This document shows positions 2,006 to 14,010 of a stretch of DNA of 53,887 nucleotides, in pieces; position 1 is the first letter of the stretch, and every line of letters starts with the position of its first letter. Position numbers and translations under genes: made by a program. Origin of the DNA: Chitinophagales bacterium (lineage in GTDB: Bacteria; Bacteroidota; Bacteroidia; Chitinophagales; Saprospiraceae); the NCBI GenBank assembly GCA_026928325.1, contig JAIXKS010000047.1, positions 118,049-171,935 of the forward strand. The letters are read 5' to 3'. Below the pieces are notes generated by a model. It was not told the DNA's origin, ran no database searches, and saw only the letters and a program-made list of their open reading frames with translations.

Positions 2006-3487
2006 CTACGTTGAAGCAGCAACGGTTGGCTTGTACAAACATGCTTTAACAGAATCCAAATCCTCCTGACTATCCCCGATGACCATTAAAATGTCATTTT
2101 CTTCTAATTCGGTAGAACCGCCTGGTCGGATATAAGTTCCATTCCTATTGATCATGACTATAAATGCCGAATTAGGAAAACACAGATCGACAATCCTTTT
2201 ATTGACTGCATAAAAATCGGGCTTGACGATGATTTCATTTAAAAAGGATTTAGGAAATTCAAATAATATTTTATCTGTTTCCGAAATCTGTTTCGAGGAT
2301 TCAGGAAGGGCTACTTTGAGCCATTTCGCAACTATAGAAAGGGTCGTCCCTTGAATAAGCACGGATGTCACAGAGATAAAAAATACAATATTGAAGATCA
2401 TATACGATTTGTCTATCCCGGCTAATAATGGATAGGTAGCAAATACAATGGGAACAGCACCACGAAGCCCAACCCAAGATATGTAGATGCGCCTATTGAG
2501 ATCCATTTTAAAAAACATCAAACTGATAAAGACACTTAATGGTCGCCCTATAAAGATAAGGAATAGCGAAATCAAAAGGCCAATACCAATGTATGGTGTG
2601 ATTTCTGAAGGAAATACTAAGAGGCCTAAGGTCAGGAATAGTATAATCTGCATCAACCAAGCCAATCCGTCGTACATCTGCATGATGGTTTTCTTTTGGA
2701 TGAGGTCTTGATTACCAAGGAAAACCGCACATATATAGATTGCCAAGAAGCCATTTCCACCTATAAAGTCTGTCGCTGCAAAGGTGAAAAACATAAGGGC
2801 GATCATCAATACCGGATAAAGTCCTTCAAAGTCTAAGTCGATGCGATTGATTATCTTTTTGATTAACTTTCCAAAAGCCAACCCAGCGACACCACCTAGG
2901 ATCATCTGCTTGAAAAACAGAGGGATAATAGAAGCTATGCTTTGATCTTGATTGATAACTAGAGTTAAAAATGCAATGGTCAGCACATAGGCCATGGGAT
3001 CGTTGCTTCCGCTCTCTAGCTCTAATGTGGGTCGTAGATTGGATTTTAAGGCGAGACTTTTTGACCTCAAGATCGAGAAAACTGCGGCGACGTCGGTCGA
3101 GGACACAATAGATCCAAGCAACATACTTTCGTAAAATGTAAAATCGGTAACATAATACACAAAAGTCCCTAGCGAAAGCGCAGTTAACAATACACCCAAT
3201 GTCGAGAGGATAAGCCCTTCTTTCAATATGGGTTTTACGGAGGTCCAATTTGTATCGAGTCCTCCCGAAAACAAGATAAAGTTGAGCGAAACTACGCCTA
3301 TAAACTGTGCAATTTTGGGATCTTCAAACCGAATGCCACCGATACCTTCCGATCCTGCGAGCATCCCGATGCCTAGGAATAGCAATAGGGTAGGAACTCC
3401 AAATTTGTAAGAGGTTTTTCCAACAATAATACTTATAAATAGTAAAATCGAACCAACTAAAATTATATTCTCTATGGTTAAACTCAT
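2006..3487 (-). CDS. K+(Na+)/H+ antiporter, CPA1 NhaP2/CvrA-like, with C-terminal TrkA-C domain
   Basis: An inner-membrane cation/proton antiporter of the NhaP2 (cell volume regulation protein A) type. The 493 residues are about 12 hydrophobic segments over roughly residues 1-390. They contain the family motifs SSTDVAAVFSILRSK (ion-binding Asp) near residue 130 and WVGLRGAVPIVFATYP near 340. A soluble tail resembling a TrkA-C/RCK_C domain covers about 405-485 and would sense nucleotide or ion. It converges with ftcD. A TAATTTTG -7 box lies about 40 bp upstream. The transported ion (K+ or Na+) cannot be told from sequence, so no symbol is given. Confidence 0.88.
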   Translation of the reverse strand: MSLTIENIILVGSILLFISIIVGKTSYKFGVPTLLLFLGIGMLAGSEGIGGIRFEDPKIAQFIGVVSLNFILFSGGLDTNWTSVKPILKEGLILSTLGVLLTALSLGTFVYYVTDFTFYESMLLGSIVSSTDVAAVFSILRSKSLALKSNLRPTLELESGSNDPMAYVLTIAFLTLVINQDQSIASIIPLFFKQMILGGVAGLAFGKLIKKIINRIDLDFEGLYPVLMIALMFFTFAATDFIGGNGFLAIYICAVFLGNQDLIQKKTIMQMYDGLAWLMQIILFLTLGLLVFPSEITPYIGIGLLISLFLIFIGRPLSVFISLMFFKMDLNRRIYISWVGLRGAVPIVFATYPLLAGIDKSYMIFNIVFFISVTSVLIQGTTLSIVAKWLKVALPESSKQISETDKILFEFPKSFLNEIIVKPDFYAVNKRIVDLCFPNSAFIVMINRNGTYIRPGGSTELEENDILMVIGDSQEDLDSVKACLYKPTVAAST

Positions 3488-3524
3488 CGTGATGTTTTTC
3501 GTATGCTGATTGAACAGATTTTCA

Positions 3525-3532
3525 CAAAATTA
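3525..3532 (-). promoter_or_regulatory. Putative Bacteroidota -7 box of the antiporter gene
   Basis: TAATTTTG on the minus strand matches the TAnnTTTG consensus, 38 bp before the ATG. No clear -33 TTTG at the expected distance, so support is partial. Confidence 0.35.
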
Positions 3533-3616
3533 GGCAATTCTTTCTAAAATTCTATTTTTGAAGGATAAAATAATAAATGTTTGTCATGATTTTGATAGAT
3601 GCAGTAATTGATAGCG

Positions 3617-3735
3617 AAATCACCAATTCAACTTTGCAGAATCCCATATTCGCACTTCACGCTTCTAGTGGGCTAATATATTTTTTTGTTTTAGTCTCTG
3701 TTAGCTTTATCGTCAAATGGATTGGGATGTATTAA
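3617..3735 (+). repeat. R2 direct repeat, left copy (island boundary)
   Basis: A 119-bp sequence repeated in the same orientation at 8542-8660 with 7 mismatches by eye (about 94% identity). The two copies bracket the island with the peptide operon and IS relics. On the minus strand it encodes IHPNPFDDKANR, which resembles the start of a T9SS type A sorting domain, before a stop; this may show where the repeat came from. Confidence 0.85.
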
Positions 3736-3799
3736 TCCTACTTTGTTTTAATTTAATGAAGTAAAATTAAGACAAAGTATATACAGAGCTTTTCGAAAT

Positions 3800-3967
3800 T
3801 TAAAACGCACAAAATAGCATGCTTATAAAATGATCATTGGTTTTGAATCGCTTGGTGCATCGGTCAGAATCGCATTTTTTGACTTCTTTTGTAATAATGG
3901 AATCATCGATTAATGAAATCAGCTGTACGAAACCAGATTTTGTCAAAAAATGATTACTTTTGCTCAT
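3800..3967 (-). pseudogene. IS4-family transposase N-terminal relic (DUF4372-like)
   Basis: A 55-codon fragment starting MSKSNHFLTKSGFVQLI and continuing KRFKTNDHFISMLFCAF. This is the pattern of the N-terminal DUF4372 domain of Bacteroidota IS4 transposases as I remember it. The reading stops where the family normally continues, and no catalytic DDE region is present nearby. It is a decayed end of an insertion sequence inside the island. Family assignment rests on recalled motif similarity only. Confidence 0.6.
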
Positions 3968-4054
3968 CGTAAAAATGTTTTGCAACACAAAGTTACGATA
4001 AAATAAACATAAAAATATAGCGTTTCGCTTTAAGATTTTCCTGTACCAGAAATC

Positions 4055-4148
4055 GACCAAATTTCAAATACCACAGGAAAGTAAAAGTGGAAACGCCTAC
4101 GAAAAAGCGTGGGCTTTCCTTTTTGCTTTGTGGTATGGGTTCTTGGTC
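4055..4148. other. Nested inverted-repeat element, candidate structured RNA
   Basis: Four pairs of complementary blocks nest in order: GACCAA 4055-4060 with TTGGTC 4143-4148; TACCAC 4069-4074 with GTGGTA 4130-4135; GGAAAG 4076-4081 with CTTTCC 4114-4119; ACGC 4093-4096 with GCGT 4107-4110. The result is one long bulged hairpin. It sits about 220 bp before the peptide ORF. It could be a 5' leader RNA, an IS end or a decayed repeat. The strand of any transcript is unknown. Confidence 0.45.
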
Positions 4149-4227
4149 GGATCTCTGTAACGAGTAGAAGGATAAAGTTCACGCTTTTTCTATTGTATCT
4201 ATACTGAGATATCACAGTTTATGATAG

Positions 4228-4320
4228 AGCGTTTTCAGCTACGCTTGGAGTATTTGCTTGGCCGGCGATACCACAGACCCAAGGCTGACGGGATATGACC
4301 CTTACCCGGCTGATTCACGT
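4228..4320. other. GC-richer foldable segment upstream of the peptide operon
   Basis: A locally GC-rich stretch within AT-rich surroundings. It has stem pairs AGCG 4228-4231/CGCT 4242-4245, GCCGG 4261-4265/CCGGC 4306-4310 and GGG 4290-4292/CCC 4299-4301. It ends about 50 bp before the candidate precursor start. I recognise no known riboswitch. It could be leader RNA or a repeat remnant. Confidence 0.3.
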
Positions 4321-4371
4321 GTGTGAGGAGGCGATTAAAAAGAGAGGGTGTTTTGTAAATTTTTTAATATC

Positions 4372-4590
4372 ATGTTAAAGTTAGATAATTTTTGTAAAAA
4401 AGGAAGAGAGGAATCATTATTTCTTAATAAGCTAGACGACATAGTTGGAGGCAGGCCTGGTGCTACTGGAGACACGGACTGTACTTCTCCAAAGCCACCT
4501 GATAATCTCTCAGACTGTACGGATGGTGGTACAATGTATATAGAAGACTCTGAACCTACAAGTGTTAATGATGATTGTGGTTATATGTAG
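4372..4590 (+). CDS. Candidate RiPP precursor peptide with double-glycine leader
   Basis: A 72-aa peptide from ATG 4372; an in-frame GTG at 4348 would add 8 residues. The leader of about 27 residues ends NKLDDIVGG, a classical Gly-Gly processing site used by C39 peptidase/ABC exporters. The core of about 45 residues (RPGATGDTDC...DDCGYM) is rich in Thr, Ser, Asp and Glu with three Cys. Those are the residues an ATP-grasp ligase would join by ester or amide bonds. A paired TDCT/SDCT motif lies in its middle. The next gene overlaps its 3' end and an ATP-grasp maturase follows, which supports the reading. No homolog can be named without a search; it could still be an ordinary small protein. Confidence 0.6.
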   Translation: MLKLDNFCKKGREESLFLNKLDDIVGGRPGATGDTDCTSPKPPDNLSDCTDGGTMYIEDSEPTSVNDDCGYM

Positions 4591-5446
4591 TCATTTGAGA
4601 GGAAGAATAGTATTATTTTTCCTCTTAATTACATTATCGGGATTTGGGCAAGTAAATCTTAGGGATTATGTATTGGATTCTTTATTCCCACAATTAGATT
4701 ACAATTATCCTTCTGTAAGAGATTTTTATCTTAGCTTAGATGTTCACTCAGATTTTGATCCTAAGGAAATGGAAACTCTACTGATTTATGCACTTAGAAA
4801 TAATGATACGACATTTTTTCTCAATACGCTCGCTGTTTTCCAAGAGAAGTATGGATTGACGATATCCTTAGACCATAACATAGAACTGTATAACGAAGTA
4901 TTTAGAAAGAGTCTATCAGACAAAAAAAGCGTACTGAAAGATGCGAAAACTCTATTTTATGCGAAAAATAACAGAGCCAGATTTGTCAACGACATGTTAG
5001 ATAAAGCGTATAATCTGGACCAGATTTATCGTACTTATTATACTCTCTACAGAAACCCTGTACACAACAATGAGATAATAATTAATACGTTAGATAGCGT
5101 GCTCTATATGATAGATAACATAAATTTTTTAATTCTCAATCATTACTGTGTTACTAACAAAGTAATGATTAATAATTTTGACTTTGGCAATAGCAGCCAT
5201 GAACGTTTTCAGTTTATATTGGCGCATAGGCTAAGACATAAAGATAAGGATTTTGTGCCATTATTTGAGCTTTTAAACGTAAATGGCGTAAACGCTTATA
5301 TCCAGAACAAGATAAATAGCTCCGTCTTTAAAATGTTTGATAAGATTATGAATGATGCATACGGATTTCAAGTGTTTGGATTTATGAAAAACGTGCCTGT
5401 AAACAAAGATTTTAGTACAAATATAAAAGGACCTTATTATAAATGA
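4568..5446 (+). CDS. Secreted or membrane-anchored protein of unknown function in the peptide operon
   Basis: About 292 residues. A hydrophobic N-terminus (VLFFLLITLSGFGQ) looks like a signal peptide cleaved near the Gln before VNLRDY. The mature part is Asp/Asn/Tyr-rich, mostly helical in appearance, with no motif I recognise. The start is uncertain: GTG 4562, ATG 4568 and ATG 4571 are in frame, all overlapping the precursor ORF. The 3' end overlaps the maturase start as ATGA (5443-5446), implying translational coupling. Position between precursor and maturase suggests a role in export, processing, immunity or as target, but this is inference. Confidence 0.7.
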   Translation: MMIVVICSHLRGRIVLFFLLITLSGFGQVNLRDYVLDSLFPQLDYNYPSVRDFYLSLDVHSDFDPKEMETLLIYALRNNDTTFFLNTLAVFQEKYGLTISLDHNIELYNEVFRKSLSDKKSVLKDAKTLFYAKNNRARFVNDMLDKAYNLDQIYRTYYTLYRNPVHNNEIIINTLDSVLYMIDNINFLILNHYCVTNKVMINNFDFGNSSHERFQFILAHRLRHKDKDFVPLFELLNVNGVNAYIQNKINSSVFKMFDKIMNDAYGFQVFGFMKNVPVNKDFSTNIKGPYYK

Positions 5447-6431
5447 TTTTAATTGTATCATCCGAAGAAGATAATTCAACCAGCGAGGTAATTGATTGGA
5501 TTTATTTTTTTAATTTTAAGTTTTTGCGCATTTCCAGTAAAGACATAATTACAATAAAAGAAATAGAATTAGGTTGCAATGATGAAATATGTTTTACTAT
5601 TAATGATAAAGTGTACAACTTAAGCGAATTTAAATGCTTTTGGTACAGACGGAGCAACTTTACCTTTAAATTTGATAATTATATTTTTCAACAAATAATT
5701 TGACTTTAGACAACGAAATTAGAAATCATCTTAAAAAAGAGCAGTCCATTTTACTTGAATATTTTTTATATAAGCTTAAGAACATATGTATAAATCACCC
5801 TGTTGAAAATATGCTTAGTAAAATAGAAGTTTTAAATCGCTGTAGAGTACACAACATTAAATTTCCCGATACGATAATTACAACATCAAAAAAATCAGCA
5901 TCGATCTTTTTTGATAGATACAAAAAGATTATCACTAAAAATATTACACAGGGGGTATTTATTTTTGAACAAAATTTTAATTACGCAATGACTCAAATTG
6001 TATTACGGAGCGATTTAGATAAATTAGGAGACTATTTCTATCCTACTATGTTTCAACAATATATACCTAAACTGTTTGATATAAGAGTTTTTTTTCTTGA
6101 TAAGATTTTTTATAGTTGCTTGATTCTGTCTCAAAAAGATAAAAAAACAAGGATTGATTTTAGGAACTATAACAAAGAAAGGCCAAATCGTATTATTAAG
6201 TTTGATTTACCGGATTATTTGAAAAAGAATCTGGTATTATTGCTCGAAGAACTAAACTTAAAATCCGATTCTATAGATTTAGTTATGGATAAGAATGGGT
6301 GCTTCTATTTTCTGGAAGTAAACCTGGTTGGACAATTTGGCATGACAACATTCCCTAAAAACTATCAATTAGAATGTGAAATAGCAAAATATTTAAAAAA
6401 TGAGAATGATAAAATTAATACCAGAAATTAA
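5443..6431 (+). pseudogene. ATP-grasp peptide maturase (grasp-with-spasm GwsG / graspetide-ligase type), frameshifted
   Basis: Two reading frames together make one ATP-grasp ligase of about 328 aa. The first (5443-5703) has the pre-ATP-grasp N-terminus MILIVSSEEDNSTSEVIDWI and FWYRRSNF. The second (through 6431) has the ATP-binding lysine region KKIITKNI, FQQYIPKLFDIRVF, TRIDFRNY and the metal-binding end FYFLEVNLVGQFG followed by NYQLECEIAKYL. The usual EVNP appears here as EVNL; Glu and Asn are kept. A one-base shift in the T run at 5684-5688 would join the frames as DNYI-FSTNNLTLD. Family members ligate Asp/Glu side chains of a precursor. It overlaps both neighbours. Either an assembly error or a real inactivating mutation. 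Confidence 0.8.
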
Positions 6432-7377
6432 AGATAAAATTCCATACTTTTATCAAACATTGACTTTTACTAAGGAAAAAATAAATATGTATAAACGTTG
6501 TTATCGGGTAGCTGACTTCAAATATTATAATAGTGGTCTTTCAAAATGTCATGGATTTTATACGCCAATTTCAAAATTAATGCTAATAGTATGTGCTTTA
6601 TTTATATTTTCCTGTAAACCAAATGATCTTGATCGATTGAGGGTTTGCTCGGACAACTTTCATTATGATAGTGAAAAAGTCTATGGTTATATTGTTGATG
6701 ATAATGGGAAAGGAGACAGTATCATGATAGATGAAATAAAGTTGAGTAATAATATATATAAATCATGCAGGAGCTTCATATATGAGGTGAACTTTCAACA
6801 TGAAGATATTTTAATGGTAGATACAGTTGAACTATTGATAACCGGAAATGAATTCAAATCTTCAGATCTTCAAAGAGAAATATTGTATATTTCTCAAAAT
6901 TTTTATGGAAATAAGAAGAAAATTGAAACTACTCTATCAAGTTATGGTGTAAATAAATCAAATTTTTTACGTCAATTTGATAAAACAGGGCTAAAAGAAA
7001 GGGAAGATGAGATTTGGTTGCATCCGATGCGGCACAACCAATATTGCATCAATGAAACAGCTCCATTTCCAATGATTAAATACCCGCTTAGAATCGGTAA
7101 TTATTGGTCAGCAAGTATTAAAACTTTTGAACCTTGGGAAGTTTGGAATGATTTAAATATTCACTCTGAATATAAGATAACAGATACAATATACTTTGAT
7201 TATTCAGTAACTGAAAAGATAAAGTGCTGGAAAATAGATGCTTATTCAGAGTATGACGAAACTATAAATCATGTTGTTTTTTACTTTAATGAAAATAAAG
7301 GTTTCGTAAAGATAGATCAAAAATTTCAAAATGGAATAAAAATGAATATATTACTACTTAGCGTAAATGATTTATAA
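6400..7377 (+). CDS. Lipoprotein-like protein of unknown function, last gene of the peptide operon
   Basis: A 325-codon ORF overlapping the maturase end by 32 bp. A lipobox-like stretch MLIVCALFIFSC (residues 61-72) would place the mature C-terminal part of about 254 residues on a membrane. The 60 residues before it (KDKIPYFYQTLTFTKEK, MYKRCYRVADFKYYNSG) are unlike a signal peptide. They may be a separate coupled small protein fused by deletion, or the real start may be ATG 6487 or 6580. The C-terminal half has many Trp/Tyr and looks like an extracytoplasmic beta-rich domain. No family recognised. Possible immunity, receptor or target protein of the peptide system. Confidence 0.6.
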   Translation: MRMIKLIPEIKDKIPYFYQTLTFTKEKINMYKRCYRVADFKYYNSGLSKCHGFYTPISKLMLIVCALFIFSCKPNDLDRLRVCSDNFHYDSEKVYGYIVDDNGKGDSIMIDEIKLSNNIYKSCRSFIYEVNFQHEDILMVDTVELLITGNEFKSSDLQREILYISQNFYGNKKKIETTLSSYGVNKSNFLRQFDKTGLKEREDEIWLHPMRHNQYCINETAPFPMIKYPLRIGNYWSASIKTFEPWEVWNDLNIHSEYKITDTIYFDYSVTEKIKCWKIDAYSEYDETINHVVFYFNENKGFVKIDQKFQNGIKMNILLLSVNDL

Positions 7378-7599
7378 GAGAAATATACTTTAGTTGAGTA
7401 TCTTCTTGTATATTAGTTAGAGGAAAAAGAATTTTATAATTCAGAATCTTGAGCGTGAGACAATACACCGCATCAGCGAAGATTTATATAAAATACTAAA
7501 AAGAATAAATGGCAAGCTAATACTTGAAATGTATCCATCCGACCAACCGCATCTTGGTAATAAATCCATTGTCATTTACTTTTGCTGCAAAAAGTAATT

Positions 7600-7887
7600 A
7601 TGACAAAGCGAGAGCAAATGACAAGATTGGTTGAAGAATTCAACCGGAGCGGACTCACCCAAAGAGCATTTTGCAATCAAAAGCAAATTATTCAATCCAC
7701 TTTTCAATACTGACATCTTAAGCTAAAACGAGAGCATCAGCAATCAACCAATTTTTATCCGGTGGATTTTGACTCAGATGCTACACCCGGGAGCATTGAG
7801 GTATGCTATCCTAATGGTATAAAAATCCGTATGAATCGTTTTAATCTCTGCTACATCAAGCAATTGGTATCATTGAGCCGTGTTTAG
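7600..7887 (+). pseudogene. IS66 accessory protein TnpA-like ORF, interrupted by a stop
   Basis: The frame starts MTKREQMTRLVEEFNRSG and LTQRAFCNQKQ, the helix-turn-helix opening of the small IS66 accessory protein. An in-frame TGA at codon 38 (7711) stops it; the frame then continues with YPNGIKIRMN to a TAG at 7885. The total of 95 codons fits an IS66 first ORF. Non-functional as read. Confidence 0.75.
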
Positions 7888-7932
7888 TCTAAGTTCGTCA
7901 TATCATTATTTTTTATACGGCAGCAGTTGTGA

Positions 7933-8502
7933 TATGAGCAAAGAGAATTTGAAAGAGTATTGGATAATGATAAATCCAGAGCACAAACAGCTCTGAGTTA
8001 TATAGGAGAGTTATACAAAGTAGAAAGACAAGCCAGAGAAGATGGAGCAAACTGCGATCAACGTAAGCGACTACGCCTTGATAAGTCATTACCAATTATA
8101 ACAGCGTTTGGCAAGTGGCTTTATCAAGAAATACAAACCGGAGAGGTTTTGCCCAAAAGTCAGATAGGTAAGGCTTTTGGTTATACACTCAATAGATGGG
8201 AGAAGCTAAGTGCCTATTTATACGATGGCTTATTAGAGATAGACAATAACCTGATAGAAAATCAGATTAGACCGATTGCCATCGGAAGAAAGAACTATCT
8301 GTTTGCCGGCTCACATAAAGGAGCACAGAGAGCAGCCAGTATTTATTCCTTCTTTGCCATCTGCAAACTACATGAAGTCAATCCCTATGAATGGCTTAAA
8401 TATGTCTTCGACAATATTGAACAAACCAAAGTCTCCAACTTAGAAAAACTCTACCCACAAAATTATAAAGTTATGATGGCAACAACCACTGAAACAGCTT
8501 AG
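7933..8502 (+). pseudogene. IS66 transposase (TnpC), C-terminal fragment
   Basis: About 190 residues of the DDE transposase end. They include YEQREFERVLDNDKSRA, the catalytic-Glu region LLEIDNNLIENQIRPIAIGR and AGSHKGAQRAASIYSFFA. A TGA (7930-7932) precedes it in frame and the two catalytic Asp residues are missing, so it cannot be active. In-frame TTG 7960 is not a convincing start. Confidence 0.9.
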
Positions 8503-8524
8503 ATGTACTTAGACGGGTGGATAC

Positions 8525-8536
8525 GACAGAGCACTA
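8525..8536 (+). repeat. Relic of one R1 terminal repeat
   Basis: GACAGAGCACTA is identical to the right terminal repeat of the R1 elements plus TA, directly next to the IS66 right end and just before R2. No matching left end nearby. Confidence 0.5.
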
Positions 8537-8541
8537 GATTC

Positions 8542-8660
8542 AAATCACCACCTCAACTTTGCAGAATCCCATATTCGCACTTCAAGCTTCTAGTGAGCTA
8601 ATGTGTTTTTTTGTTTTAGTCTCTGTTAGCTTTGTCGTCAAATGGATTGGGATGTATTAA
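8542..8660 (+). repeat. R2 direct repeat, right copy (island boundary)
   Basis: The second copy of the 119-bp repeat at 3617-3735. Its right border coincides with the point where an IS630-like relic is truncated, and its TTAA even supplies that relic's stop codon. Confidence 0.85.
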
Positions 8661-8827
8661 ATAATGCCTAAAAGGCCTTCATTTCGATGCTTTCGTAGTG
8701 CATTGATGGTATGTTTTATTGCTTTCTGTGTAAATTTTATTAATTTTGCAACTGTTTTGAGCTTCATATCAATAATAATGGCCGAACGGGAATTTAGAAT
8801 GGCTATTTGACCACGTGAATGTAGCAT
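8657..8827 (-). pseudogene. IS630-like transposase N-terminal relic
   Basis: A 56-codon fragment with the layout of the IS630 helix-turn-helix region: HSRGQIAILNSRS, then MKLKTVAKLIKFTQKAI, then RKHRNEGLLGI, equivalent to the usual R-x-Q...LNS...VAK...EGLLG pattern. It is cut at the R2 boundary and lacks the DDE domain. It is of interest because R1 elements have TA target duplications typical of IS630/Tc1. Assignment is by motif memory only. Confidence 0.4.
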
Positions 8828-8941
8828 GTTTTTTTAAAGAACGGCCTAAAAAAATACAAAATGTATAAAGGTTGTTATCTGAATGAAGCACGAATGAAGT
8901 AGGATTAATTTACTTAAATTTTTTTATAAAAATAATAAAAG

Positions 8942-10471
8942 ATGGATACATCATTTTTAAAAGAACTCAACCTGCATCCTAAGAATGAAGGTACTTGGAC
9001 AGGACGACAATCATTGCCTTCAGATTCTTATATCGATTCTTATTCTCCTGTTGATGGCGCACTCATAGGTAGTGTTAGCCAAACCACGAAGGAGCAATAT
9101 GAAGCGGTAGTTACAAAGGCACAAGAAGCTTTTATAACTTGGCGAGAGGTTCCGGCACCTAAAAGAGGTGAAATCGTCCGACTATATGGTGAAGCATTGA
9201 GAAAACATAAAGATGCATTGGGTAGGTTAGTCTCTTATGAGATGGGTAAATCCCTCCAAGAAGGCTATGGCGAAGTTCAGGAAATGATTGATTTATGTGA
9301 CTTAGCAGTAGGCCTTTCTAGACAATTATATGGACTAACGATGCAATCTGAACGTCCCGCACACCGGATGTATGAACAATGGCATCCACTAGGTATTGTC
9401 GGAATCATTACGGCATTTAACTTCCCGGTGGCTGTGTGGTCTTGGAATTCTATGATAGCTTTGGTTTGTGGCGACGTGTGTATATGGAAGTCTAGTGAAA
9501 AAGTGCCACTCTGTGCTATCGCTTGCCAAAATTTATTGCATAAAATATTAGAGGAAAATAATGTGCCGGAAGGCGTAAACAGCATCATTACGGGTGACTA
9601 TAAAGTAGGAGAGTGGATGACCAAAGACAAGAGAGTTGCTCTTATTTCCGCTACGGGAAGTACGCGAATGGGTAAAATCGTCGGTGCTACTGTTGCAGAG
9701 CGTCTTGGAAAAAGTTTATTGGAATTGGGTGGTAATAATGCCATTATCGTTACGCCAACAGCCGATCTCAATCTGGTGCTGATTGGTGCCGTATTTGGTG
9801 CAGTAGGTACTTGTGGGCAGAGATGTACATCAACTAGAAGATTGATTGTGCATGCCGATGTTTATGAAGAAGTCAAGGCTAAATTAATCAAGGCTTATGG
9901 ACAAGTGCGCATTGGTAATCCATTAGATCCTGATATGCATGTTGGTCCGCTCATTGACACCATGGCTGTGGATAATTATCTAAATGCTTTGGCGGCAGCA
10001 AAAGAGCAAGGCGCCAAGATTTTGGTTGAAGGTGGCGTACTTTCAGGTAAGGGCTACGAAACAGGTTGCTATGTCAAGCCTTGTGTCGTGGAAGCTGAAA
10101 ATCATATGCCGATTGTCCAGCATGAAACCTTTGCACCGATTTTATACCTTATCAAATACGAAGGAGGTGTAGAGAATGCCATTCAACTTCAAAATGATGT
10201 GCCTCAAGGGTTGTCTTCGGCTATTATGACGAATAATTTAAGAGATGCTGAAAGATTTTTATCGGCAGCAGGGTCTGATTGCGGTATCGCTAATGTAAAT
10301 ATTGGAACCAGTGGTGCTGAAATCGGTGGTGCTTTCGGAGGAGAAAAAGATACCGGAGGCGGAAGAGAATCTGGATCAGACTCTTGGAAAGCATACATGC
10401 GCCGACAGACCAATACAATCAATTACAGTACGCAGATTCCATTGGCTCAAGGAATAAAATTTGATTTGTAA
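8942..10471 (+). CDS. Aldehyde dehydrogenase, ALDH7 (antiquitin / alpha-aminoadipic semialdehyde dehydrogenase) family
   Basis: Cytosolic NAD(P)-dependent dehydrogenase of 509 residues. The start MDTSFLKELNLHPKNEGTW and WHPLGIVGIITAFNFPVAVW are characteristic of ALDH7. The catalytic Glu lies in LLELGGNNAI (about residue 261) and the catalytic Cys in GTCGQRCTSTRR (about 295). Members oxidise 2-aminoadipate 6-semialdehyde in lysine breakdown (amaB/pcd) and other aldehydes. No other lysine-degradation gene is close, so the substrate is inferred from family. It starts 35 bp after the repeat-rich island. Confidence 0.92.
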   Translation: MDTSFLKELNLHPKNEGTWTGRQSLPSDSYIDSYSPVDGALIGSVSQTTKEQYEAVVTKAQEAFITWREVPAPKRGEIVRLYGEALRKHKDALGRLVSYEMGKSLQEGYGEVQEMIDLCDLAVGLSRQLYGLTMQSERPAHRMYEQWHPLGIVGIITAFNFPVAVWSWNSMIALVCGDVCIWKSSEKVPLCAIACQNLLHKILEENNVPEGVNSIITGDYKVGEWMTKDKRVALISATGSTRMGKIVGATVAERLGKSLLELGGNNAIIVTPTADLNLVLIGAVFGAVGTCGQRCTSTRRLIVHADVYEEVKAKLIKAYGQVRIGNPLDPDMHVGPLIDTMAVDNYLNALAAAKEQGAKILVEGGVLSGKGYETGCYVKPCVVEAENHMPIVQHETFAPILYLIKYEGGVENAIQLQNDVPQGLSSAIMTNNLRDAERFLSAAGSDCGIANVNIGTSGAEIGGAFGGEKDTGGGRESGSDSWKAYMRRQTNTINYSTQIPLAQGIKFDL

Positions 10472-10654: not shown

Positions 10655-13051
10655 ATGTTTGAACTAACCTCTATTAAGTCTGAACCTAAAGTGGTATGTA
10701 CCCATTGTGGGGATGAATGCCCTAAGAATCACCCGGTTTTAGACGATAAGGATTTTTGTTGCAATGGGTGTCAAGTGATATATACCGTATTGCAAGACAA
10801 TGGTCTTGGAGATTATTATAGTTTTCAAGTTACGCCAGGCGTTAGTCAGCAGTGGGCACGAAAAAATAATTATGCCTTTTTGGATGAAGAAAGTGTCGTC
10901 AGTAGCTTGCTTGAATTTAGAGAGCAAAATTTAGCAAAAATAAGTTTTTCTTTGCCACAAATACATTGTGCTTCTTGCTTATGGTTACTAGAGAATATCA
11001 ATAAATTATTGCCGGGCATTATTCATTCTCGAGTTAATTTCCTAGCAAAAACAGCAACCATAACATTCAATCCGGAAATGGTCTCCTTGAGAAAGGTTGT
11101 CGAACAATTGGCAGCTATAGGTTATCCGCCGGAATTGAACATGCAAAAGCTAGCCGATAAGCCAGCCATGAATCAAGATAGAAGCCTGTTCTACAAACTC
11201 GGACTGGCTGGATTTGCCTTTGGCAACATTATGCTGCTTAGTTTTCCTGAATATCTGGGATTCGAAAAGGCTTCCGTTAAGTTTTATCTCGGGTATATGA
11301 ATATAATACTCGCTTTGCCGGTATTGTTGTATAGCGGATTCGACTATCTTCGTTCGGCCTGGTGGACCGTGCGGATGAAGCAGATAAATATAGATATTCC
11401 GATAGCGGTTGGCATGTTGACCTTGTTTTTTAGGAGTGTCTATGAGATTGTAACTGCTACAGGTGAAGGATATTTGGATAGCTTAGCCGGATTTGTTTTT
11501 TTCCTTTTAATAGGAAAATGGTTTCAGCATTATACTTTTTATTCGATTACCTTCGATCGGAATTATAAATCGTATTTTCCGATTTCTACCCTTGTAAAGG
11601 TTGGTGACAATTGGCAGTCAAAGACCTTGGATAAGATTGATGCCGGCGATATGGTGATGGTCAAAAACGAGGAGATTATCCCTGTGGATTCGATCCTCAT
11701 GAGTAGTGAAGCTGTTGTAGATTATAGCTTTGTAACAGGAGAATCCGATCGCATCAGGAAGAAAAAAGGCGAAAAAATCTTTGCAGGTGGTAAGAATATC
11801 GGTGCCAATATCCAGGCTCAAGCCTTAAAGCGTGTTGATCAATCCTATTTGACAAAACTATGGGATGAAGATTCTTTTAAGATCGACAAGGATACAAAGA
11901 CACAGACCATTATAGACACCATAGGTCGATATTTTACGATTACGGTGATGAGTATTGCGGTCTTAACCTTGATTTATTGGCTGATTGTGGATGAATCTCT
12001 AGCTTTCAATGCTTTTACAGCCGTGCTGATTGTAGCTTGCCCGTGTGCATTGGCTTTAGCTATGCCATTTAGTTACGGAAATATCCTGCGCATCTTAGGG
12101 AGAAATCACTTCTATCTCAAAAATGTCCAAGTCATAGATCGCATTCAACATATAGATGAGATTATATTTGATAAGACAGGGACGATAACAGATCATGTAA
12201 ATATCCACGTTACCAATACGGGCAGATCCTTATCCGAAAGGGAGGCTTACCTTATAAAAACGGCAGTATTTCAGTCCAATCATCCACTCAGTAAAGCGAT
12301 TTTTAATAATTTCGATGCACCTTATTCTGTGGATGTGACGGAATTTACGGAGGTCACAGGTCAAGGTACGATTACGGTATTGGAAGGACATACGATTAAA
12401 ATCGGTTCCGCAGCCTTCATGAATCAACCTCAGCAGGAGGATCAAAAGGGCGTGTATATTGCAATTGATGACCAAATGATAACCTGGTTTAGCGTCGAAC
12501 ATCAACTTAGAGAAGGTGTAGAACAGTTGGTCAATACGCTTGGTAATACCTATGCAATTACGATACTATCCGGAGATAATAATCGGGAAGAAGCAAGGCT
12601 AAAATCGTTTTTTCCTGAAAAGAGTCAAATGATTTTCAATCAAACGCCCATGGATAAGCTAAATTATATCAAGCAAAGACAGGCAGCAGGTCATCAAGTA
12701 CTGATGATCGGAGATGGGCTTAATGATGCTGGAGCTTTGATGCAAAGTGATGTAGGAATCGTGGTTTCCGAAGCGTCAAATAATTTCACTCCTGCTTGTG
12801 ATGCTATCTTGGGCGCCAATGCTTTTCACCGACTGTTGAAGTATTTGACAAAGCTCAATCAAGCAAGAAATCTCATTAAAGGTGCATTTATGCTAGCCTT
12901 TATTTATAACGTTATCGGATTGTACTTCGCTGTTCGAGGAGAATTATCTCCAATTGTTGCCGCCATATTGATGCCGGTAAGTTCCATAACCGTCATGATT
13001 TATGGCCTATTGTCCAGCACGTGGCTCTTTAGAGATATTGATCGCCTATGA
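10655..13051 (+). CDS. ccoI: Copper-translocating P1B-type ATPase for cbb3 oxidase assembly
   Basis: An inner-membrane Cu+ exporter of 798 aa that supplies copper for cytochrome cbb3 oxidase maturation (CcoI/FixI). In order: a Cys-rich N-terminal metal-binding segment (VCTHCGDEC, FCCNGC, residues 15-40) as in CcoI, an HMA-type CASC site (105-108), transmembrane helices, the CPC motif VACPCALALAMP (about 461), the phosphorylation site DKTGTIT (about 506) and GDGLNDAGAL (about 686). The ccoS and ccoN genes that often follow it in this phylum are absent; instead the 3' end is duplicated downstream. Confidence 0.93.
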   Translation: MFELTSIKSEPKVVCTHCGDECPKNHPVLDDKDFCCNGCQVIYTVLQDNGLGDYYSFQVTPGVSQQWARKNNYAFLDEESVVSSLLEFREQNLAKISFSLPQIHCASCLWLLENINKLLPGIIHSRVNFLAKTATITFNPEMVSLRKVVEQLAAIGYPPELNMQKLADKPAMNQDRSLFYKLGLAGFAFGNIMLLSFPEYLGFEKASVKFYLGYMNIILALPVLLYSGFDYLRSAWWTVRMKQINIDIPIAVGMLTLFFRSVYEIVTATGEGYLDSLAGFVFFLLIGKWFQHYTFYSITFDRNYKSYFPISTLVKVGDNWQSKTLDKIDAGDMVMVKNEEIIPVDSILMSSEAVVDYSFVTGESDRIRKKKGEKIFAGGKNIGANIQAQALKRVDQSYLTKLWDEDSFKIDKDTKTQTIIDTIGRYFTITVMSIAVLTLIYWLIVDESLAFNAFTAVLIVACPCALALAMPFSYGNILRILGRNHFYLKNVQVIDRIQHIDEIIFDKTGTITDHVNIHVTNTGRSLSEREAYLIKTAVFQSNHPLSKAIFNNFDAPYSVDVTEFTEVTGQGTITVLEGHTIKIGSAAFMNQPQQEDQKGVYIAIDDQMITWFSVEHQLREGVEQLVNTLGNTYAITILSGDNNREEARLKSFFPEKSQMIFNQTPMDKLNYIKQRQAAGHQVLMIGDGLNDAGALMQSDVGIVVSEASNNFTPACDAILGANAFHRLLKYLTKLNQARNLIKGAFMLAFIYNVIGLYFAVRGELSPIVAAILMPVSSITVMIYGLLSSTWLFRDIDRL

Positions 13052-13678: not shown

Positions 13679-14010
13679 TTAATGATGCTGGAGCTTTGAT
13701 GTAAAGTGATGTAGGAATCGTGGTTTCCGAAGCGTCAAATAATTTTACTCCTGCTTGTGATGCTATCTTGGGCGCCAATGCTTTTCACCGACTGTTGAAG
13801 TATTTGACAAAGCTCAATCAAGCAAGAAATCTCATTAAAGGTGCATTTATGCTAGCCTTTATTTATAACGTTATCGGATTGTACTTCGCTGTTCGAGGAG
13901 AATTATCTCCAATTGTTGCCGCCATATTGATGCCGGTAAGTTCCATAACCGTCATGATTTATGGCCTATTGTCCAGCACGTGGCTCTTTAGAGATATTGA
14001 TCGCCTATGA
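13679..14010 (+). pseudogene. Truncated duplicate of the ccoI 3' end
   Basis: Corresponds to residues from about 689 to the end of CcoI. The substitution at 13702 turns a Gln codon into TAA in frame, so even the fragment is broken; a 96-codon remainder after it could start at GTG 13720 but lacks every catalytic motif. No function expected. Confidence 0.9.

Follow-up and report, generated by a model that had tools for sequence, protein, structure and literature searches.

The locus lies in a stretch of 53,887 nucleotides from a Chitinophagales bacterium, referred to below as the window, to which all coordinates refer unless a contig or locus is named. Inspection of the ORF list together with the sequence revealed five consecutive plus-strand ORFs (Table 1), one more than the four counted in the preliminary description. 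The first, of 72 codons, contains LNKLDDIVGG, in agreement with the earlier report of a 72-aa peptide with a GG leader end, and the second, which starts at GTG 4562 or ATG 4568, appears by eye to be signal-peptide-like, as had also been proposed. Both of the ATP-grasp motifs previously assigned to one enzyme, MILIVSSEEDNSTSEV at 5443 and FLEVNLVGQFG ahead of 6431, are present, but they sit in two separate ORFs of 86 and 243 codons in different frames. The last ORF (325 codons, 6400-7377) does carry a lipobox-like FIFSC, as expected for a lipoprotein-like ORF, but it is not a single entity, comprising an LPL-like small protein and a lipoprotein. ORF overlaps of 23, 4 and 32 bp were confirmed, the first on condition that the second ORF starts at ATG 4568.

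Table 1 Features of the locus and its flanks (window coordinates)
Feature	Position	Strand	Remarks
DUF4372 fragment upstream of the cluster	3800..4060	-	PF14294, 3.8e-9; 90% identical stretch elsewhere in the genome
Putative precursor peptide, 72 aa	4372..4590	+	leader ending IVGG; core rich in Cys, Ser, Thr, Asp and Glu
Secreted-type protein, 294 aa	4562..5446	+	ATG at 4568 as alternative start; slot of cluster-23/DUF6624-like secreted proteins
gwsG piece A, N-terminal part of ligase, 86-codon ORF	5443..5703	+	TIGR04192 match
Interval of the reading-frame change	5682..5702	+	bounded downstream by the TGA that closes the first frame and upstream by the nearest stop in the second
gwsG piece B, ATP-grasp domain, 243-codon ORF	5700..6431	+	start TTG 5700; most conserved residues retained
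LPL-like small protein	6400..6579	+	residues 1-60 of the 325-aa ORF; ends FYTPISKL; without a stop of its own
Lipoprotein, lipobox-like FIFSC	6580..7377	+	continues the frame of the small protein; apparently no longer has its own signal-peptide n-region
Truncated IS66 transposase (7960-8502) with a short ORF ahead	7582..8502	+	PF03050, PF13817

The ligase gene gwsG

A profile search in NCBIfam returned TIGR04192 as the best family for both ligase pieces, piece A matching positions 1-82 (3.4e-11, 43 bits) and piece B positions 91-318 (1.4e-57, 195.4 bits). The comparison with this family suggested in the preliminary description was borne out to that extent, but neither piece attains the curated whole-protein cut-off of 230 bits. 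In a genome-wide profile search of the same organism, TIGR04192 matched at this locus alone. On an HMM built from 24 related ligases, piece A covers positions 1-77 (64.8 bits) and piece B positions 84-318 (228.4 bits), collinear and without overlap, indicating that the two are parts of one ligase gene with a frame change within 5682-5702. The 86-codon ORF stops at TGA 5701-5703 and the 243-codon ORF begins at TTG 5700, forming a 4-base TTGA stop/start. The break falls inside the pre-ATP-grasp domain, as placed by a weak match to PF21068 that lies under the cut-off (positions 1-85 of 121, E 0.0011). Piece B retains 21 of 27 conserved columns and deviates at the other 6; in leave-one-out comparisons, the 24 family members show deviations at 0-7 of 27-30 conserved columns. 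Piece B is within the family range, at its upper end, which points to recent decay or to a sequencing error at the frame break, not to old decay.

Besides the organism itself, 9 of 59 relatives have a TIGR04192 match, as do 30 of 394 other genomes of the phylum, this second figure including weak matches to other ligases. The comparison set was formed by every ligase match in other genomes that scored at least 170 bits, 28 in total (11 from the search of relatives and 17 from that of the phylum). All but one of these ligases are encoded in one open frame that spans the model from position 1-3 to position 315-318. The exception, L044 (G365), starts at position 20 and has an apparent break near its start. 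A second sequence of the same species was also sought among genome contigs, yielding two distant relatives only in a search that may omit near-identical records.

Gene order, secreted protein and flanking DNA

According to PMC8939145, branch 5 consists of Bacteroidetes ligases with SPASM proteins encoded at their loci; 'cluster 23' secreted proteins occur in almost all branch 5 loci, and small 'LPL' proteins, which were proposed to be PqqD-like helpers, are always directly upstream of the SPASM gene. A SPASM-domain protein (GwsS) is encoded downstream of the ligase on the same strand in all 28 compared loci, within 107-279 bp in 27 of them and at 1167 bp in L035, where another secreted protein lies between. 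An ORF matching our small-protein model begins near the ligase end in 27/28 loci, in the slot before GwsS; of the 22 small ORFs used to train this model, 21 come from the same 28 loci, so that only 6 of the 27 matches (L022, L042 and L071-L074) are independent of training, L042 being nearly a copy of L041. The 28th locus, L020, has a similar small-protein frame interrupted by a stop. Two further loci found by another route, L069 and L070, both have GwsS downstream, and at E 0.001 the small-protein model matches the former and not the latter. The GwsS ORFs of the 28 loci, some of them cut by contig ends, lack CxxxCxxC in their first 200 residues, and the 'radical-SAM partner' of the preliminary description is therefore not an apt label.

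The upstream side was read for 24 loci, L071-L074 being outside this count, and a secreted-type protein, judged by eye without a signal-peptide program, precedes the ligase in 17 of these. It is absent in L017, L021, L039, L040, L045, L046 and L047; its place in L038 and L043 is ahead of the peptide, and L019 has a second secreted-type protein without a clear signal peptide. Together with cluster 23 in PMC8939145, this count runs against the earlier view of the secreted protein as an unfamiliar companion. The locus under study shares with grasp-with-spasm systems (TIGR04192/TIGR04193) the ligase family, a GG-type peptide upstream and a secreted-type protein between the two.

Several of the relatives' loci are themselves irregular. 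GwsS is split into two ORFs in L039 (G204) and L074 (G346), and truncated ligase remnants without GwsS nearby were found in L075 (G165) and L076 (G267); with the ligase of L044, these suggest that breakage may be common in the gws system. L019 (G010:C76) carries two ligase-small protein-SPASM sets in tandem.

The 72-aa ORF gave no Pfam or NCBIfam match at E 1. Against an HMM of the leaders of 13 relatives, its own leader obtains 7.6 bits. This value was reached by 4 of 2000 shuffles, and each of the 13 true members scored higher when omitted from the model (10.3-32.4 bits), which lends modest support to the assignment of the ORF as a putative precursor. For the secreted protein, BLAST and HMM comparisons with the secreted proteins of relatives revealed no clear homology, and it was outside the best 8 listed matches of the relatives' HMM (E up to 10). 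An hhalign comparison with them was collinear over 220 columns with a score of 23.5, at a probability of just 2.7%, the controls scoring at most 18.5 in 10 shuffles and 14.3 when reversed. PMC13097080 reports DUF6624 (PF20329) proteins near graspetide clusters; PF20329 matches 3 of the 9 scanned secreted proteins of relatives, L018 above the cut-off (5.2e-13) and L038 (0.0072) and L036 (0.011) below it, whereas the secreted protein of the window and its paralogue in the same genome (G000:C2:173517-174335; 26%, 1.9e-16) have no Pfam match. Contig G000:C2, which carries this paralogue, has no match to TIGR04192; the paralogue there is preceded by a 539-aa lipoprotein-like ORF and by the same transposase-type fragment (L033, 6403-9372).

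Remnants of mobile elements flank the locus. On the downstream side, the ORF 7960-8499 matches only positions 168-283 of 284 of PF03050 (2.9e-34) together with PF13817 (2.3e-9), and the 43-aa ORF ahead of it (7582-7713) has no Pfam match. Upstream lies the DUF4372 fragment (PF14294), which we take to be a transposase N-terminal domain and whose 90% copy is located at G000:C2:171391-171601, near the secreted-protein paralogue. Transposase remnants on both sides fit a decaying region, without proving decay. An attempt to read an empty site from the flanking genes in nine other genomes of the genus found the aldehyde dehydrogenase in 7 and the exchanger in 3 (G003, G005 and G006), where the two are not adjacent, so that no empty site could be read.

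Repeats were noted more widely around the locus. The region 3780-4372 contains dispersed genome repeats: parts of 3997-4296 recur as 78-80% copies on contigs C62, C57 and C5, and C2 carries a 90% copy of 3789-3999. Further downstream, a stretch of 300 nt at 12720-13019 recurs at 13679-13978 with 99% identity, 959 bases on; it comes from the 3' part of a P-type ATPase gene, reflecting either a duplication or an assembly artefact. About 12-20 kb upstream of the window start, two copies of a three-ORF unit, presumably of the recombinase plus transposase type, occupy 471-2705 and 5955-8189 of L015, the printed parts of their proteins being identical. An Rfam scan of the window returned one tRNA only.

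The composite ORF and the absent partners

The first 66 residues of the 325-codon ORF score 21.5 bits against an HMM of 22 small-protein homologs built without it, a score reached by none of 2000 shuffles (maximum 13.2); leave-one-out scores of true members span 2.4-49.7 bits. When the positional prior was dropped, it ranked second of the 395 ORFs of the window (E 0.017), behind an unrelated short ORF. The small proteins of relatives often end in a YKPISK-like motif, to which FYTPISKL at residues 53-60 corresponds; the pattern [FYH]xPI[ST][KRN] occurs once in the 31,912 residues of window ORFs, at this very site. By analogy in position, size, gene order and the P-containing motif, the small protein may be assigned to the LPL family of PMC8939145.

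From residue 61 onwards, the same ORF belongs to a lipoprotein family present in 47 of 297 other genomes of the same taxonomic family. We read 19 of the loci behind the 55 lipoprotein matches in other genomes, and within 1.5 kb no ligase or SPASM gene is present at any of them. Most of the 19 homologs show, in their printed starts, an ordinary signal peptide and no LPL-like extension, the exceptions being L088 and L091, which are without a start, and L095, whose start is longer and different; the LPL model at E 0.01 gave no match on these loci, but it also missed the composite ORF of the window and is uninformative here. The lipoprotein of the window has only 11 residues ahead of the lipobox cysteine and lacks its own basic n-region. 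The ORF is thus a chimera of an LPL-like small protein and a lipoprotein. The surviving gene order of the locus, with an LPL-like small protein directly after the ligase, is that of the branch 5 graspetides of PMC8939145, but here the small protein runs in frame into the lipoprotein and no SPASM gene comes next.

Neighbourhood comparison, which for the secreted-type protein brought out recurrence, did not do so for the lipoprotein, and its role as an obligate partner was rejected on the 0/19 count. A counter-example is G024, in which two lipoprotein homologs lie 3.7 and 4.6 kb downstream of the ligase. This arrangement possibly reflects a functional link between lipoprotein and ligase, and may equally mark the source of the lipoprotein.

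The preliminary description had noted the lack of a SPASM or C39 gene in the window, and this absence extends, at the thresholds used, to the whole genome (3.72 Mb in 74 contigs, listed completeness 100). Searches at threshold returned no match in it either to TIGR04193, the SPASM partner, for which the control search was positive in 1 of 14 genomes, or to PF03412 (Peptidase_C39), for which it was positive in 8 of 14. The ligase locus differs in both respects, as well as in its split ligase gene, from the known grasp-with-spasm systems. The junction of LPL-like protein and lipoprotein sits where the SPASM gene belongs, and tblastn with the SPASM proteins of 11 relatives detected no remnant of that gene in 3001-9000 of the window (best E 0.15).

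Origin and fate of the locus

It is very probable that the locus is a decayed grasp-with-spasm (branch 5) graspetide cluster. Its ancestral order would have been precursor, secreted protein, gwsG ligase, small LPL protein and gwsS SPASM protein, possibly followed by an exporter. Judging from the family, the ligase of an intact cluster would form ester or amide links from Ser/Thr/Lys to Asp/Glu side chains, the SPASM protein and the LPL helper would act on the peptide, and a C39 transporter would cut at GG and export the peptide. At the present locus, the ligase frame is broken in the N-terminal pre-grasp domain, and no C39 exporter is left. A deletion would have taken gwsS together with the stop codon of the LPL gene and the beginning of the downstream lipoprotein gene, leaving the remnants joined in frame. 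The split of the ligase, the loss of the SPASM gene together with the composite ORF and the absence of a C39 exporter lead us to infer that this copy is dead, and the peptide is most likely no longer matured. Against decay stands the fact that the ORFs stay long and that the LPL-lipoprotein fusion is in frame.

Derivation from a RiPP cluster, as proposed earlier, follows from the placement of the ligase in the grasp-with-spasm family. The further idea of a compact, intact variant that lacks its partner by design is unsupported, because the ligase is broken, gwsS is absent from its slot and the small gene is fused to the lipoprotein. Loss most likely accounts for the odd layout better than a new system would.

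An assembly error in a working minimal cluster is an unlikely alternative: the real ligase would be intact and would serve a graspetide that does without a SPASM partner and leaves by another export route. The conserved residues mostly retained in piece B would agree with such an error, as would a short homopolymer, a run of five T, within the break interval; however, the gwsS gap in its slot, the composite ORF and the genome-wide absence of GwsS and C39 would all be left unexplained. Considerably less probable still is a reduced but functional graspetide locus that works with neither SPASM protein nor C39 exporter. Pieces A and B would then be translated separately through coupling at the TTGA overlap and assemble into a two-subunit ligase, while the fusion of LPL helper and lipoprotein would tether maturation to the envelope. 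Conserved sequence in both pieces and the in-frame fusion would suit this proposal, but in the comparison set of 28 ligases, 27 have a single open frame and the exception, L044, is broken elsewhere; moreover, the break lies within one domain, the second piece has a TTG start, and both the SPASM partner and the C39 exporter are absent. Programmed frameshifting to restore the ligase, although compatible with collinear pieces and a short junction, was rejected as scarcely credible, since no canonical slippery heptamer was seen by eye in 5682-5702 and none of the 28 compared ligases is broken at the same place.

If the locus were alive after all, it would provide a test of whether the SPASM partner is dispensable. 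With a decayed cluster as the preferred reading, the locus illustrates that gene decay can lie behind a RiPP layout that looks unusual when read from sequence, a single explanation covering the absent partner, the split enzyme and the odd lipoprotein alike, and the family would gain a case of an LPL-like protein outliving its SPASM partner through fusion.
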